NCBI GenBank assembly: GCA_026388335.1
Contig: JAPLJZ010000258.1
Span: 1-46,792, forward strand
Direction: 5' to 3'
DNA: 46,792 bases
Origin: Deltaproteobacteria bacterium
Lineage (GTDB): Bacteria > Desulfobacterota > Syntrophia > Syntrophales > UBA8958
Every line of letters begins with the position of its first letter. Positions within the stretch are counted from its first letter, which is position 1. The notes under the pieces are model-generated. The model was not told where the DNA came from, made no database searches, and worked only from the letters and a program-made list of their open reading frames with translations. Positions 38,807 to 46,068 of this stretch are shown in pieces. Made by a program: the position numbers and the translations under genes.

Positions 38807-39154
38807 TCAGATGTGAACCTCGGAAACGGCCCGCTGCAGAACGCTTTTTACATAAGCATTCAATGTCATGCCTTCATCAAGGGCATTCACGACCAAGTGC
38901 TTATGGAGCTCGGGATCAAGACGGATGTTGAACGTGCCCTTGAAGGGTTTTTCGGGTTCCCTGCCTTCTTCGACGCACATATCGAGATAATCATCAACTC
39001 CATCCCGGAAATCCTTCACAAGATCGTCAACTGTCTTTCCCTCATAGGCGATGTGAGCCTTTTTCATCCCCATAACGCGACCGTAGAAAAGCATATCATC
39101 TTGATCGAATTGAACATTCCCGGTGTACCCTTTATGCTGCAAAATATTTTTCAT
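38807..39154 (-). CDS. hicB: HicB-type antitoxin
   Basis: A 115-residue HicB with a partly degraded RNase-H-like N-terminal domain (YTGNVQFDQDDMLFYGRVMGMKKAHIAYEGKTVDDLVKDFRDGVDDYLDMC) and a C-terminal ribbon-helix-helix DNA-binding part (FNIRLDPELHKHLVVNALDEGMTLNAYVKSVL). It binds HicA and represses the operon. Its start overlaps the hicA stop by four bases (ATGA). Confidence 0.92.
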   Translation of the reverse strand: MKNILQHKGYTGNVQFDQDDMLFYGRVMGMKKAHIAYEGKTVDDLVKDFRDGVDDYLDMCVEEGREPEKPFKGTFNIRLDPELHKHLVVNALDEGMTLNAYVKSVLQRAVSEVHI

Positions 39155-39405
39155 GGTGCAACTCCTATGTCTGTCAAAAATCCCCGTATCGTCTCTACCG
39201 CGCCTTTCGATATTATCTTTCCCGGGTGCGGTGCATGAACATGAAGACTGTAATCACGGCACTTGAACCTTACACGAGACCCCTTGCCCTCTTTCATGAT
39301 GGCACCGATCCCCATAAGCAGCGAAACGGTTTCCTGCCAAGGAATATCTGATCTTGTAGGCTTCTCAAAGATCATGGCCAGGGTCTTTTTCTGTTTGGCG
39401 CTCAT
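39151..39405 (-). CDS. hicA: HicA-type mRNA interferase toxin
   Basis: An 84-residue HicA. The double-stranded-RNA-binding-like fold includes the conserved histidine region DYSLHVHAPHPGKIISKG. It would cleave mRNA when free of HicB. The open frame extends 67 codons upstream, but that part covers a large hairpin and a terminator. The start at 39405 (MSAKQKKTL) matches normal HicA length and has a weak AGAG site. The toxin-first order is standard for hicAB. Confidence 0.85.
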   Translation of the reverse strand: MSAKQKKTLAMIFEKPTRSDIPWQETVSLLMGIGAIMKEGKGSRVRFKCRDYSLHVHAPHPGKIISKGAVETIRGFLTDIGVAP

Positions 39406-39468: not shown

Positions 39469-39528
39469 TGAGCCACCATAACTCATTGAATGGCGCTCGC
39501 GCACCACGCTCCATGCCTGGCGCACCAA

Positions 39529-39558
39529 GAAAAAACCCGCTATTTCTAGCGGGTTTTG
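39529..39558. terminator. Bidirectional terminator-like hairpin
   Basis: ACCCGCTA-TTTC-TAGCGGGT (39535-39554) is flanked by an A-run on the left and TTTT on the right, so it can stop transcripts from both sides. It sits at the probable left edge of the accessory region. Confidence 0.65.
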
Positions 39559-39559
39559 T

Positions 39560-39579
39560 ACTTCTTTGGACTTCCTTGG
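39560..39579. repeat. Tandem 10-mer beside the terminator (possible attachment-site-like)
   Basis: ACTTCTTTGG and ACTTCCTTGG follow each other directly. Short tandem units next to a terminator hairpin are often seen at integration junctions of islands, but no integrase or matching second copy was found in the window. Confidence 0.3.
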
Positions 39580-39825: not shown

Positions 39826-40098
39826 TTAAACTGATCGAGTCAGGTCACTGAATTCCGGCAGCAAGGTACTGCACACCCAAAACTTATTTCCGTTTCTATA
39901 AATCTCCGAAAAATTCTTAAATTCGCCTTTGACATACCTCGTAGGAAGGTGTAGCTGTTGCCTCGGAATCTGTATAATGCAGTACGCTTTGAATGCGCCG
40001 TCAAGGGCTTTTGTGCAGTCCCAGATATCATGAAGCTCCTTCAGGAGGTTACGGCCTAAATGAAAAATAGTTTGACTTCTTTTTCTTTTTCTGTTAGG
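39826..40098 (-). pseudogene. Coding remnant without start codon (90 codons)
   Basis: A frame of 90 codons open from just after a TAG at 40099-40101 to a TAA at 39826-39828. Its conceptual product looks protein-like (for example KAYCIIQIPRQQLHLPTRY and GEFKNFSEIYRNGNKFW) but holds no Met, Val-GTG or Leu-TTG start. It is probably the C-terminal remnant of a gene whose 5' part was lost when the abiF locus arrived. An unusual ATT start cannot be excluded. No family was recognised. Confidence 0.4.
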
Positions 40099-40100
40099 CT
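40072..40100 (+). promoter_or_regulatory. Promoter of the abiF leader RNA
   Basis: TTGACT (40072-40077) and TAGGCT (40095-40100) are separated by exactly 17 T-rich bases. The predicted start is near 40107, about 87 nt before the abiF ATG. This is the only good promoter upstream of abiF. Confidence 0.55.
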
Positions 40101-40106
40101 ACCCTA

Positions 40107-40220
40107 CAATTCGTTGAACAACACCTGCCACGCCTCTACGGGCTTCGGTCCGAAATGCGCACCCAGGCGGGTTACTTATACGGGGGCTTGGTGATGGAAT
40201 ATACCAAGCCCCCTCTTTTT
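40107..40220 (+). ncRNA. Putative abiF-associated structured RNA (antitoxin/partner candidate)
   Basis: About 114 nt between a promoter and a terminator-like hairpin. Visible structure: a CGGGC-TTCG-GTCCG hairpin with a cUUCGg tetraloop (40139-40152), enclosed by CCTGCC (40124-40129) pairing with GGCGGG (40166-40171), then the terminal stem-loop (40182-40213) with a T-run. Conserved structured RNAs upstream of abiF genes are known as a class (the abiF RNA motif). Whether this sequence fits that model could not be tested here. Ends are estimates. Confidence 0.5.
40182..40220 (+). terminator. Terminator-like hairpin enclosing the abiF start codon
   Basis: A perfect 11-bp stem GGGGGCTTGGT (40182-40192) / ACCAAGCCCCC (40203-40213) closes a 10-nt loop that contains the abiF ATG (40194-40196). 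TCTTTTT follows. The G-run that would serve as ribosome site is inside the stem. It can therefore both end the leader RNA and hide the start of abiF. Confidence 0.7.
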
Positions 40221-41099
40221 ATTGACCAGCAAATTGACCTGCTCATGTCGCGTGGCATGAGGATCGACAATAGAGATCGCGCCGCAAGATACCTTAGTCA
40301 TATCAATTATTACCGTTTCCGTGCTTATTGGCTTCCTTTTGAAGAAAAATCAGACCAGACTGAACATCAATTCAAGGCGGGAACAACTTTTGACGATGCT
40401 CTGAAACTTTACCTTTTCGATCGGAAACTCCGCCTGCTGGTCATGGAGGCGATTGAACGTGTTGAAATATCTTTCCGGACAAGGTTTGCTCATGAGTTAT
40501 CTCTTAAATACGGGAGCCATGTCCATCTCGATTCCGGTCTTTTCAAACGATCTGACATATATCATCAACATATTGAAAGCCTGAAAGTAGAAATCAAGCG
40601 AAGCCAGGAGACTTTCATTGAGCATTACCGGGTAACCTATGACGATCCAGAACTGCCACCTATATGGGCAGTCTGCGAGGTTATGACCTTTGGACAGCTT
40701 TCCATGTGGTTTAAAAATCTGAAACGACGTTCCGATCGTAATGCAATTGCTCGCATCTATGGCATCGATGAAACCATTCTCGGGTCGTTCATGCATCACC
40801 TGACGCATATCCGCAATCTATCGGCCCATCATAGTCGACTCTGGAATCGCAGAATTGTCTTTACCATGACGATCCCTACACTCCCTACTGATCTTGCCAT
40901 GCAGTTCAATCCTACAGCAGGCCGCAACATCTACAACACCTTTATCATGTTAGGATACCTCCTGAAACTTATTAGTCCTGGTACATCCTGGGTTGCCCGA
41001 ATGAGACATCTCATTGAGGAGTACGTGCCGGACAAGTCGGCAGCGATGGGATTTCCCGAAGGTTGGCGTGATCTACCATTGTGGAAGGATGGCAAATAA
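40194..41099 (+). CDS. abiF: AbiF/AbiD-type (Abi_2) HEPN abortive-infection protein
   Basis: A 301-residue Abi_2-family protein. The N-terminal IDQQIDLLMSRGMRIDNRDRAARYLSHINYYRFRAYW pattern is diagnostic. The C-terminal HEPN motif RNLSAHHSRLWNRR contains R-x4-H (R207, H212), expected for RNA cleavage. A second R-x4-H (RTRFAH, R95-H100) lies in the first half. Such proteins stop phage growth by damaging host RNA and have been proposed as relatives of Cas13. The ATG at 40194 is preferred over one 13 codons upstream because homologues begin near it. Translation is likely controlled by the hairpin around the start. The gene is intact and ends at 41099. Confidence 0.85.
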   Translation: MEYTKPPLFIDQQIDLLMSRGMRIDNRDRAARYLSHINYYRFRAYWLPFEEKSDQTEHQFKAGTTFDDALKLYLFDRKLRLLVMEAIERVEISFRTRFAHELSLKYGSHVHLDSGLFKRSDIYHQHIESLKVEIKRSQETFIEHYRVTYDDPELPPIWAVCEVMTFGQLSMWFKNLKRRSDRNAIARIYGIDETILGSFMHHLTHIRNLSAHHSRLWNRRIVFTMTIPTLPTDLAMQFNPTAGRNIYNTFIMLGYLLKLISPGTSWVARMRHLIEEYVPDKSAAMGFPEGWRDLPLWKDGK

Positions 41100-42322: not shown

Positions 42323-43585
42323 GTGCCCATTGAAGAGCGACGTAAGCCCAAGATGAAAGTCACTGGTTTTGATAGGCATTCATGCGTGGATATTCTTGAA
42401 CGAGTAAAAAGAAAAATCTTTGACTTTCAAGCGGCTCGTGAGCGCCAACCTCTGAATATTGAAAAGTCAGCGGGTCCTTTTCGGTATGAATACATATCTG
42501 TCAGTCACGTTTTAGGTGCTAAGCTGCCAGATGGTTCACCAGACCCGTTTCAGATTGCCCATTTCCCCAACATGAATGCAAAAGCCTATCTCACTCACAA
42601 TTGGGACGAACCGTACTTTCATATCGATCGGGCTAATTCATATGGAACACTCCTGTTGACGGGTCTGGTCGGCATCAAGCGTTTCAAGAAGCTGTCCCGC
42701 TACGTAAATCGATTCCTTCAATGGATTTTTGGACCCGAGTGGGCCTTTATGCGGAACTTGGAATCTCAGTCAGTGAGAATTAGGGAACAGCGGCTCAAGG
42801 AGCATTCTGGTCCGGGCTGTTGCCTCGTTTATCGCGCACGTGGTCGCGTCGATCAGCCTATGGATCTGAGTGCGTCTCGGAGATATGGTGAGATTGGTGT
42901 CGCTTTGGATGCATTCGATGGATCTGTGGTTAGGAAAGAACATGAGTTAAATGTGCGAAATGTCACAACAGCTATGTCTGTCGCTATGACTGACACAAAT
43001 GGATCACCCGAGATTCGGTTTCTCGCCGACAATGTTCACCTTCTCAGCAAAGATGAACTAGTGATTTATGTGCGTACCATGAAAATGAGGGCAGGTGGCA
43101 TAGTTGTTACAATTATGCCATCTGGTAAATTTGTCGCCACTGTCGAAAGCTACACTGCCGGACTCAGCGCAGATAGTAAGCTCTCTTCGGCGGCTTCTTT
43201 ATTCGCATTGTCCCAACATAAATCCAATGACAACTTACGCTCATTTATTGCATCTTGGTCTGCTTTCGAACTATTGATATTTAACCTTGAGAAGAAATTT
43301 AGAGACGTATTTCAAAAACTTATGCGGTCAAATGATGTGGCTCTGCCTGCTTGGGACAAGGATTTGAGCGTCACTGACATCGGAGATTACCGCTTGAGAG
43401 ACAGATTCTATGCAGTTGCCTGTACAACTAATCTTGCCGAAGCTGAAGCCGACACGAAAATATTCAATAACCTTAACGCAAAACGAAATGACTACTATCA
43501 TCGATTTGAGATCGAGGATACAGAACTTCCGACTCATGATGTTCAGTCACTTTTTCGGAAGTACCTAAAAATTGTACTATCTTAG
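42323..43585 (+). CDS. Hypothetical protein with C-terminal HEPN-like R-x4-H motif
   Basis: A 420-residue soluble protein with no recognised N-terminal domain. The C-terminal ~130 residues are helical (SFIASWSAFELLIFNLEKKF...) and contain RNDYYH (R388-H393), the R-x4-H motif typical of HEPN ribonucleases. The spacing between the helix FELLIF and the motif suits a HEPN fold. The start is a GTG with poor ribosome site; ATG at 42353 is an alternative. With the preceding gene it forms a likely defence or toxin module. The HEPN call is by motif only. Confidence 0.65.
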   Translation: MPIEERRKPKMKVTGFDRHSCVDILERVKRKIFDFQAARERQPLNIEKSAGPFRYEYISVSHVLGAKLPDGSPDPFQIAHFPNMNAKAYLTHNWDEPYFHIDRANSYGTLLLTGLVGIKRFKKLSRYVNRFLQWIFGPEWAFMRNLESQSVRIREQRLKEHSGPGCCLVYRARGRVDQPMDLSASRRYGEIGVALDAFDGSVVRKEHELNVRNVTTAMSVAMTDTNGSPEIRFLADNVHLLSKDELVIYVRTMKMRAGGIVVTIMPSGKFVATVESYTAGLSADSKLSSAASLFALSQHKSNDNLRSFIASWSAFELLIFNLEKKFRDVFQKLMRSNDVALPAWDKDLSVTDIGDYRLRDRFYAVACTTNLAEAEADTKIFNNLNAKRNDYYHRFEIEDTELPTHDVQSLFRKYLKIVLS

Positions 43586-43673: not shown

Positions 43674-43702
43674 GACGGCCACAGGGGGTGGTCTTGGGAC
43701 AA

Positions 43703-44551
43703 ATGAACAAACCAAGCAAGTGGATGATCGTACACAACCTCAAGCTCGGGGTCCTCTTCCTCGGTCTAATCGGTGTGGCGATTGCACTGCAGTTTCTAGG
43801 CAACGAAGGTCTTTCCTCACTTGGATCTAACCTCGTCGCCGAATTCATTGGTGCAGCGGTGACTATTTATGGAGTTGATTACCTAATCAAGCGCCGTGAG
43901 GAAAGGCGCTTACTCCCGGTCAGAGCAGCCTCGTACGAGGATGTTCGAATAATGACCCACTGGGCATTAGATCTCTGGAAGAGCGCCTACATCAACTCGG
44001 TCGGCGACTCATCACCGAAGAACTGGGCCGAACTCTTCTCAGAGGATACCATAAAGAAAATTCAGATGTCACTTGATATTACTAAGCCCGCCAACGTAAT
44101 TCCTGCAGAGCCATGGAGCACTTATTTCGATCGGGAGATGGAGAAGATTCATACTCACGCCGAGAAAGTATTGGAACGGCACGCGGTGATCCTTGACCCA
44201 GAAATACATGGCGCTGTTTACACCCTCGTTTATTACAACCATCACAAGATTTCAGACTTGATCGCTTTTGATAAACAACTCGGCATACCGAGGCCAACCT
44301 GCCTAGGCAGCTACGTCCCAATCATCCGCAATTGGTTTGATGCAGTACTGACAATGCAAACTTGGACTATAGCTGCTCACCAAAAGCTAACGTGCAGTGG
44401 CATTGTTAATATCCATAGCCCCTACACCTTCAGTCCACTTGAGGAAAAAGCTCTTCCACCTGCCAGATTTGATGATGGGGCTTTAGATTCGCAGTTACAA
44501 CATTTCTCGCAATGGCAAAACCAACGGGCAGTTGCACGCAAGGCCGTCTAA
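43703..44551 (+). CDS. Hypothetical two-TM membrane protein
   Basis: A 282-residue protein. Two N-terminal membrane segments (about 10-32 and 44-62) are followed by a long cytoplasmic part rich in helices (RREERRLLPVRAASYEDVRIMTHWALDLW...). Two TM helices plus a soluble effector-like part is a pattern seen in some phage-defence proteins, but no domain was recognised. A GTG 15 bases upstream (43688) is an alternative start. Its stop codon coincides with the edge of a group II intron remnant, so its C-terminus could be altered. Confidence 0.65.
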   Translation: MNKPSKWMIVHNLKLGVLFLGLIGVAIALQFLGNEGLSSLGSNLVAEFIGAAVTIYGVDYLIKRREERRLLPVRAASYEDVRIMTHWALDLWKSAYINSVGDSSPKNWAELFSEDTIKKIQMSLDITKPANVIPAEPWSTYFDREMEKIHTHAEKVLERHAVILDPEIHGAVYTLVYYNHHKISDLIAFDKQLGIPRPTCLGSYVPIIRNWFDAVLTMQTWTIAAHQKLTCSGIVNIHSPYTFSPLEEKALPPARFDDGALDSQLQHFSQWQNQRAVARKAV

Positions 44552-44691: not shown

Positions 44692-46068
44692 GTGAACATC
44701 GATGACATTACCGCTATCATGGAGAATAGATACTCTATTGATTGTGTCCAAATGATGTTAGAACCACAGTTAGCCGGTACTGTTGGGAAGGCTCATCGGG
44801 GGATGGGATTTATAAGTCAGGATCCAGATGGTTCTTTTTCATTAAAAATGTATTGCATCGGCGATATTTCGCCACAGGATGTTTTCGCCCGATCATTCGA
44901 CTGGAAGGCAGGAGAGCTTATTCATGAAGATTACTACTATAAGCTCACGGCCAGCGATATACGTGGCCGTCAATGGGAAGCGAAATGGATTATACCAGAT
45001 ATTAGCTTAGGGCCAGAGCCCCAAAGGTACATAGTCGGCGGGAACATAGGAGAATTCTCCCATTCAACTGACTTATCTCATGTTTCTGCGTACTATGCGG
45101 GCATCTATATTCCCGGAAACATTAGTATCCCTTGTGGTATGGGTTCAGCTATAGAGAAAATGGTAAACGGTCAACAACGCTCATTATCGACGAACCTTAA
45201 CATAGCGAAATTTTCTGCTTGTAATATTGACTTTGAGATCGAAAAAAATGTCAACTGGCTTATAATAAATGTACAATCGAACGCACCAATTAACGACGCG
45301 CTGTTGGTACGGATAATTGAATCACTGCAGTTCGTGTTGGCTAAGTCTTTATCGTGGTCAATTATTGAGTTGATTCATGATAAAACAATTAAGGTTAGGA
45401 TTAGGCCTTGCCTAAGAAATGATAATAAATCGAGGATTGAACCACCCATTCAATTTCAGTCAGTTGATCCCTCGAACAAAGTATGGACTCTGTTTGGTAA
45501 ATTTCTGAATCACACAAAACAGTATGATAAATTATTATGGCACCCTATATTTCGTTGGATTCGTGCGGTCATCGAATCTGGATATTCATTAGATGCTGAA
45601 TCATTGATGCTTTCCGTTGCAATAGAAGGGCTAATAAGAGAGAGATTCAATAACCTTGATTATAGGAATGCAGAGCTGCAAAGTCAGATTAATAAAGCAA
45701 GATGTGTGATAACGAGATCAGAATTAGAACCTGATTTTAAAAACAGGATTTTTAGCCTGTTGGGAAATATGCTGAAACCAAGGGCAAAGGACTCTTTGCA
45801 TATCTTAAAAGATCAGAACTTGTTAGACGTCAGGCTGTTAGAGGAATACAGTAAATTAAGAAATAGCTCTGCACATGGAGAGCTAGCCGATTCGTCGAAG
45901 TTTCAGGTGCACTTGGATAGATGTGCAGCAGTACTGGTCTTGTTCTATCATCTAGTATTTATAGCCATAAATTATAGTGGCCCTTACACTGACTACAGCT
46001 CTCGAAATTACCCCGAAAAGGGATTTACTATAGATACAGTATTGTCACAGCCAAGTAGTCAGCCATAA
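44692..46068 (+). CDS. ApeA-like HEPN protein (candidate anti-phage)
   Basis: A 458-residue protein starting at GTG with GGGAGG about 9 bases upstream. The N-terminal ~260 residues are beta-rich. The C-terminal helical part (SVAIEGLIRERF..., LLDVRLLEEYSKLRNSSAHGEL) contains R390-x4-H395, the HEPN catalytic motif. This split, a beta-rich N-terminal half and a C-terminal HEPN, is seen in the ApeA anti-phage family, though length and identity could not be checked. AT-rich codon use differs from the core genes, consistent with transfer. Confidence 0.65.
   Translation: MNIDDITAIMENRYSIDCVQMMLEPQLAGTVGKAHRGMGFISQDPDGSFSLKMYCIGDISPQDVFARSFDWKAGELIHEDYYYKLTASDIRGRQWEAKWIIPDISLGPEPQRYIVGGNIGEFSHSTDLSHVSAYYAGIYIPGNISIPCGMGSAIEKMVNGQQRSLSTNLNIAKFSACNIDFEIEKNVNWLIINVQSNAPINDALLVRIIESLQFVLAKSLSWSIIELIHDKTIKVRIRPCLRNDNKSRIEPPIQFQSVDPSNKVWTLFGKFLNHTKQYDKLLWHPIFRWIRAVIESGYSLDAESLMLSVAIEGLIRERFNNLDYRNAELQSQINKARCVITRSELEPDFKNRIFSLLGNMLKPRAKDSLHILKDQNLLDVRLLEEYSKLRNSSAHGELADSSKFQVHLDRCAAVLVLFYHLVFIAINYSGPYTDYSSRNYPEKGFTIDTVLSQPSSQP

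Follow-up and report, generated by a model that had tools for sequence, protein, structure and literature searches.

How does a toxin gene keep pace with the RNA that would restrain its product when the gene's own start codon lies inside a terminator-like hairpin? The question is raised by a predicted abiF locus on a contig of a Deltaproteobacteria bacterium, analysed here over its full 46,792 nucleotides (the window), whose features are collected in Table 1. The reading of this DNA from sequence only had proposed an AbiF HEPN protein, and homology bears it out: the product matches Pfam Abi_2 (PF07751) with 199.2 bits, over a curated cut-off of 25.6, and the PDB entry 8vz6, an "Abi family protein", with a phmmer E value of 3.5e-50. 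NCBIfam returned no match for seven proteins, AbiF included. We take R207-NLSA-H212 to be the HEPN R-x4-H motif and, judging by homology, assign the gene to the Abi_2/AbiF HEPN proteins as an AbiF-type phage-defence toxin. The lactococcal AbiD1 presumably belongs to Abi_2 as well. Beside abiF lies a second toxin-antitoxin pair, HicB- and HicA-like genes on the minus strand (38807-39154 and 39151-39399; Pfam 68.9 and 32.2 bits). Three uncharacterised plus-strand genes stand downstream (42323-43585, 43688-44551 and 44692-46068), which gave no matches with Pfam (E 0.001), PADLOC or NCBIfam; the outer two contain R-N-x3-H stretches that look HEPN-like by eye.

Upstream of the gene, a structured leader with a cUUCGg hairpin and a closing stem had been noticed and assigned to the abiF RNAs. 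Both elements are present in the predicted fold, and the assignment is upheld by an independent model, R1, built from 40 relatives with the window left out of training. The covariance check nevertheless came out divided: R1 matches the leader with 55.2 bits (E 4e-12), whereas Rfam RF03085 reaches 30.7 bits at 40124-40172, under its gathering cut-off of 37, and in a stricter genome search over 155 genomes of the window's order RF03085 gave 2 matches, the window's own genome not among them. Of the 10 pairs in the model, 8 have changed on both sides among the 40 relatives aligned for R1. For the leader (40108-40225) the predicted folding energy is -43.4 kcal/mol (z -3.66), which none of 200 shuffles equalled. 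R1 finds an abiF RNA in 110 of 119 AbiF loci searched (97/99 and 13/20), and in 70/79 of the loci outside training; the nine without an R1 match are L013, L088, L106, L107, L109, L113, L118, L120 and L121. Another R1 match in the window, at 39524-39562 on the minus strand (20.9 bits), coincides with an ordinary terminator-like repeat and was rejected.

Several features of the RNA in other loci deserve record. Family-wide, GGGUUACUUUUUU is frequent at its 3' end, UAC separating the stem from the U-run (for example in L016, L034 and L041). At L037 (2961-3020) and L114 (2473-2541) the first abiF RNA is followed 1 to 1.5 kb further downstream by a second, perhaps belonging to a neighbouring second system. 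In L061 the abiF RNA at 1356-1424, the only one that R1 reported, is followed before the gene by what appears by eye to be a second abiF-like stem, resembling the RCd22 double motif. Short abiF pieces keep an upstream abiF RNA in L008 (1809-1868, minus strand, 62.6 bits; same genus) and L009 (1701-1768, minus strand, 63.6 bits; same order), and the RNA may therefore outlast the toxin gene.

The promoter first proposed for the leader, TTGACT-N17-TAGGCT, finds no support. The letters exist, yet they give 8/12 consensus matches, with 3/6 for TAGGCT, the scan did not report them and the spacing seen in the family disagrees. When 91 loci are aligned at the RNA's AACA, the -10 element sits at -13..-7; the window equivalent is TACAAT, 27 nt from TTGACT, and a TATAAT with the same spacing occurs in L016. 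No clear -35 element was seen in the window at the family position of this profile. If TACAAT is the -10 box, the transcript would probably start near 40116-40117.

Table 1. Features of the abiF locus, in window coordinates
Feature	Position	Strand	Details
TTGACT-N17-TAGGCT of the sequence-only reading	40072..40100	+	hexamers at 40072-40077 and 40095-40100; probably not a promoter
Probable -10 box TACAAT	40105..40110	+	from the profile of 91 loci anchored on the RNA's AACA
abiF RNA, predicted RNA antitoxin	40115..40183	+	own model R1, 55.2 bits, E 4e-12
Closing stem P1 and inner parts	40123..40172	+	ACCTGCC 40123-40129 with GGCGGGT 40166-40172; from folds
Inner stem CGC/GCG	40131-40133/40157-40159	+	predicted fold
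cUUCGg hairpin	40139-40152	+	40139-40143 with 40148-40152; predicted fold
P1 tract TACTTATAC	40173..40181	+	decayed counterpart of the family tract TACTTTTTT; at most 4 T in 8 nt
Hairpin over start codon	40182..40213	+	arms 40182-40192 and 40203-40213, loop 40193-40202; G-rich ribosome site in 5' arm
U-tract TCTTTTTATT	40214..40223	+	end of codon P7 and codons L8 F9 I10
abiF coding sequence	40194..41099	+	301 aa; Pfam Abi_2 9.6e-59, PADLOC AbiD 9.7e-79, PDB 8vz6
HEPN motif R207-N-L-S-A-H212	40812..40829	+	R207, N208, A211 and H212 invariant in 6 aligned homologues

Between the RNA and the gene, the sequence-only reading had described a perfect 11-bp hairpin with the ATG in its 10-nt loop, the G-rich ribosome site in its stem and a T-rich tail, and a repeat search and folds confirm every part of this description. 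The arms are an 11-nt inverted repeat, 100% complementary and separated by 10 nt, and the ATG occupies 40194-40196. Folding the leader gives the G-run 40182-40186 a pairing probability of 0.997-1.0 and leaves the start codon mostly unpaired (0.11-0.22). The 3' arm and the U-tract are coding sequence, the arm consisting of K-P-P-L codons. At aligned residue 9 of AbiF, Phe occurs in the window alone (1/91 loci; Ser or Thr in 77/91), and its TTT codon makes the U-run that follows the hairpin. A GC-rich hairpin followed by a T-run, the form of an intrinsic terminator, is thus found over the start, and with its tail it is the sole terminator-like site that the scan reported between 39558 and 41323 on the plus strand. 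Across 223,293 bases of this genome (the window and 19 other stretches; 397 ORFs at least 100 aa long, 1128 candidate starts), a terminator-like hairpin covers only two candidate starts, GTG 40191 and ATG 40194, both of this gene. A possible complement between RNA core and coding sequence (TGCCACGC/GCGTGGCA), an 8-nt match in 2/11 members of the window's clade and 0/74 other loci (85 of 92 loci have the motif), was dropped as chance.

Relatives were drawn from genomes of the window's phylum and of the groups of loci L017 and L024, from 80 genome contigs, from 14 viral contigs and from four plasmids. The genome-contig loci are the 80 best-scoring among at least 574 relatives, with distant AbiFs under-sampled, and the plasmids are four of 424 matching plasmid records. 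A viral scan with the single protein gave no relative, and an alignment scan returned 14. A blastn search of plasmids with the leader matched 5 records over the RNA part, the hairpin not being covered. Start regions were mapped in 117 loci; the main comparison comprises 92, window included, after removal of 20 (unclear P1, unclear start, or the near-copies L110, L111 and L021) and of 5 with spacers over 60. In a tree of 91 proteins (L081 was too short), the window belongs to a clade of 11 members, supported at 98/88. Within it, L017 and L019 (Holophagaceae) group with L137 and L138, from genomes of the same order; L024 (Nitrospinota) groups with L139 and L140 of the same phylum; and L083 (Desulforhabdus), L003 (same order as the window) and L016 group with the window.

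A hairpin enclosing the start codon is present in 10 of the 11 clade members, L016 having only a weak one. Counted by script from single folds, a method that leans towards each fold, the longest pair runs (G-T included) are 13 in L140, 12 in the window with one G-T, 11 in L024, 10 in L017, L019 and L137, 9 in L138, 8 with a bulge in L139, 6 in L083 and 5 in L003. The start codons vary among ATG, GTG and TTG, with the 13-bp hairpin of L140 lying over TTG and the 11-bp hairpin of L024 over GTG. The pairing is kept over differing letters: the third position of the Pro6 codon forms G:C in 5 members and C:G in 4, and that of codon 4 forms four pair types. When the spacers were shuffled, p was 0.002 for the window, 0.003 for L140, 0.008 for L024, 0.013 for L017, 0.017 for L138, 0.039 for L137, 0.068 for L019, 0.29 for L016, 0.61 for L139, 0.70 for L083 and 1.0 for L003. 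Two programs missed hairpins of this kind: RNAalifold did not propose the start hairpin on the clade alignment, probably because MAFFT had shifted the spacer, and the terminator scan did not report that of L024, probably owing to its loop limit.

If the start hairpin ends the RNA, what becomes of the RNA's usual end? Soon after P1, 79/92 loci carry a T-rich tract (at least 6 of 8 bases T), and we infer that P1 and this tract form the terminator in relatives. A best T count of 4 or fewer, as in the window, occurs in 4/92 loci, the window included, and tracts with 5 or fewer T in 8 are concentrated in the clade (6/11 vs 7/81 elsewhere; Fisher p 0.0008). By a score of the d'Aubenton Carafa type, the start hairpin exceeds 0 in 4/92 loci, all of them in the clade: the window (26.6), L024 (26.3), L140 (19.6) and L137 (1.4). 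By the same formula, P1 and its tail score -29 in the window, and P1 and its tract exceed 0 in just 22/92 loci; their loops are too long for the scan to see. In rank tests that ignore kinship, a weak P1 tail goes with strong hairpin energy in the clade (rho 0.73, p 0.011), and T count and stem score show no clear link (rho -0.50, p 0.11). Over the 92 loci, again ignoring kinship, stem score and T count give rho -0.27 (p 0.010) and strong against weak stems p 0.0006; hairpin energy and P1 tail show no clear family-wide trend (p 0.25-0.27).

We consider it probable that the ratio-setting terminator has been moved onto the toxin's start codon, in a system where an AbiF toxin is held by its own abiF RNA antitoxin; our confidence goes no higher because the terminator role of P1 in relatives scores weakly. 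Transcription would begin near 40116-40117 and yield the abiF RNA. Most of it would stop in the T-tract 40214-40223, after the hairpin enclosing the start codon, and the resulting RNA of about 105 nt would bind and silence AbiF. Occasional read-through would produce toxin mRNA in which this hairpin also sequesters the ribosome site and start codon, and since terminator and mask coincide, a single element would reduce toxin synthesis at two steps. A further effect of the hairpin would be to deny ribosomes access to the plentiful short RNA, on which a start codon would otherwise stand with no stop to follow. During phage attack the toxin would be released. Both roles of the hairpin, ending the RNA and masking the start, had been anticipated from the sequence; its recurrence in the clade with compensatory changes favours them, as predicted functions at this locus. 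The companion proposal, that the leader is a separate antitoxin RNA with read-through into the gene, extends to this locus by homology from a relative for which passages of PMC12373285 describe it by experiment.

Could the hairpin be a by-product, a G-rich ribosome site that naturally pairs with conserved Pro-Pro codons and has no selected function? Family-wide selection for a start hairpin was not found: in 104 of 113 loci (9 without a clear start were left out) the mean energy z is -0.17, and p falls below 0.05 for the stem in 7/104 and for the energy in 11/104. Synonymous recoding gives the window only modest values (p 0.043-0.073 for the stem, 0.099 for the U-tract); among the other clade stems, L024 and L140 reach 0.013-0.015, L137 0.035 and L017 0.057, and six lie above 0.1. 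A swap test, pitting spacers against relatives' codons, yields p 1.5e-4 for the clade (1e-4 with U letters) and, within lineages, 0.04 when the stem score is used and 0.0006 when energy is used. It was discounted, because of 30 control sets, each made of 11 other loci drawn at random, 16 also gave p below 0.05 (least 0.001), and this unspecificity also suits a by-product. Pairing nevertheless reaches past the ribosome site and the Pro codons in L140 and the window, with double changes, strong stems cluster in one clade (9/11 members with a stem score of at least 18 vs 15/81 loci elsewhere, p 6e-5), and there is the trade-off with the P1 tract; we find a by-product improbable. Rather unlikely, in our judgement, is a hairpin confined to masking the ribosome site and start codon, with the antitoxin RNA ending after P1 or by processing. 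The Holophagaceae group would fit such an arrangement, since its hairpins are strong but its U-tracts poor (tail scores 2.5-2.9 vs 4.2 in the window), and in three of its four members four or five T still follow the UAC of P1; in abiD1, too, the terminator is distinct from the ribosome-site hairpin, which lowers translation, as described in passages of PMC2661086. The window, L024 and L140 argue the other way, with decayed P1 tracts and start hairpins that score far better as terminators.

A switch has also to be weighed, in which P1 is opened early on by the hairpin's 5' arm, which pairs with the core of the abiF RNA, and forms again once the 3' arm has been transcribed; RNA-bound AbiF would then favour termination, a negative feedback. 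Adding the spacer abolishes predicted P1 in 8/11 clade members, the window included, against 6/81 others, and the 3' arm restores it in 7 of those 8. Shuffled spacers fold equally well, however, with p below 0.05 in 0/11 clade members, which means that G-richness alone explains the pairing of 5' arm and core, and we give the switch little credence. Within the preferred reading, that of a terminator moved onto the start codon, the initiating ribosome (or a phage protein, compare Orf1 on abiD1) might act as an antiterminator at the nascent ribosome site, blocking the hairpin before its 3' arm is made. This addition is doubtful; if true, the start of translation would be what permits the toxin gene to be transcribed, the first codons of the toxin would be the terminator of its own antidote, and part of the clade would have traded the RNA's end signal for the hairpin.

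The closest arrangement of parts is that of AbiFCd-RCd22 from a Clostridioides difficile prophage, for which the passages cited report by experiment that most transcripts stop before abiF, that read-through gives the mRNA and that the RNA neutralises the toxin (PMC12373285). As described there, it resembles the predicted window locus in its Abi_2/AbiF protein, upstream abiF-motif RNA, one promoter, Rho-independent terminator and read-through mRNA; it has two abiF motifs, whereas R1 finds one before the window gene, and its terminator comes before a ribosome site and ATG that stand apart from it, whereas the window hairpin encloses the start codon (PMC12373285). Its ATG is given as 168 nt from the transcript start and its full-length RNA as 132 nt (PMC12373285). 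AbiF-AbiFr (PbAbiF, PDB 8vz6), held in the passages cited to be ancestral to Cas13 (PMC12737573, PMC12373285, PMC12804078), resembles the window in its homologous toxin and abiF-type RNA. By analogy, the nearest functional precedent is lactococcal abiD1. The cited portions of its description report a leader terminator with read-through and a stem-loop that masks the ribosome site, translation being raised by the phage Orf1 protein or by cold; they mention no RNA antitoxin, and terminator and masking hairpin are two neighbouring structures, which in the window would be one (PMC2661086). In the cplR leader of C. difficile, transcription stops prematurely at the start codon, and the terminator hairpin also hides the ribosome site, in an antibiotic-resistance gene under uORF control and, as far as the cited passages go, with no RNA antitoxin (PMC10201436). 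Given this precedent, as excerpted, a terminator that hides the ribosome site at a start is not new in principle.

To our knowledge the toxins of the type III systems ToxIN, CptIN and TenpIN are unrelated to AbiF. According to the passages cited, these systems join an RNA antitoxin, a Rho-independent terminator and a toxin in one operon, as predicted for the window locus; their antitoxin is a tandem repeat and their terminator precedes the toxin gene (PMC5086642). In the window, R1 finds one abiF RNA before the gene. The type III order of RNA, terminator and toxin is present in the window, with a candidate terminator that overlaps the toxin gene and a weak candidate promoter.

Pairing of RNA and toxin, and a terminator as ratio-setter, are already known; the novelty seems to lie only in fusing them with the start codon. 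The literature searched contained no description of an AbiF terminator enclosing the start codon, and an earlier notice in Weinberg 2017 or Zilberzwige-Tal 2025 is possible. Within that literature, what appears new is a start-codon terminator used by an RNA-antitoxin system and recurring across phyla in one AbiF clade. A single small element may thus set both the ratio of RNA to toxin and the translation of the toxin. One hairpin with both roles, ending the antitoxin RNA and concealing the start of the toxin, would be a compact, testable control point, where small shifts in ribosome loading or polymerase speed would alter RNA supply and toxin synthesis together. It would tie recent work on abiF RNAs to what was found earlier for abiD1, where translation from a masked start region is switched on by a phage protein, and it would be a case of a coding sequence, the Lys-Pro-Pro-Leu beginning of AbiF, doubling as an RNA terminator.
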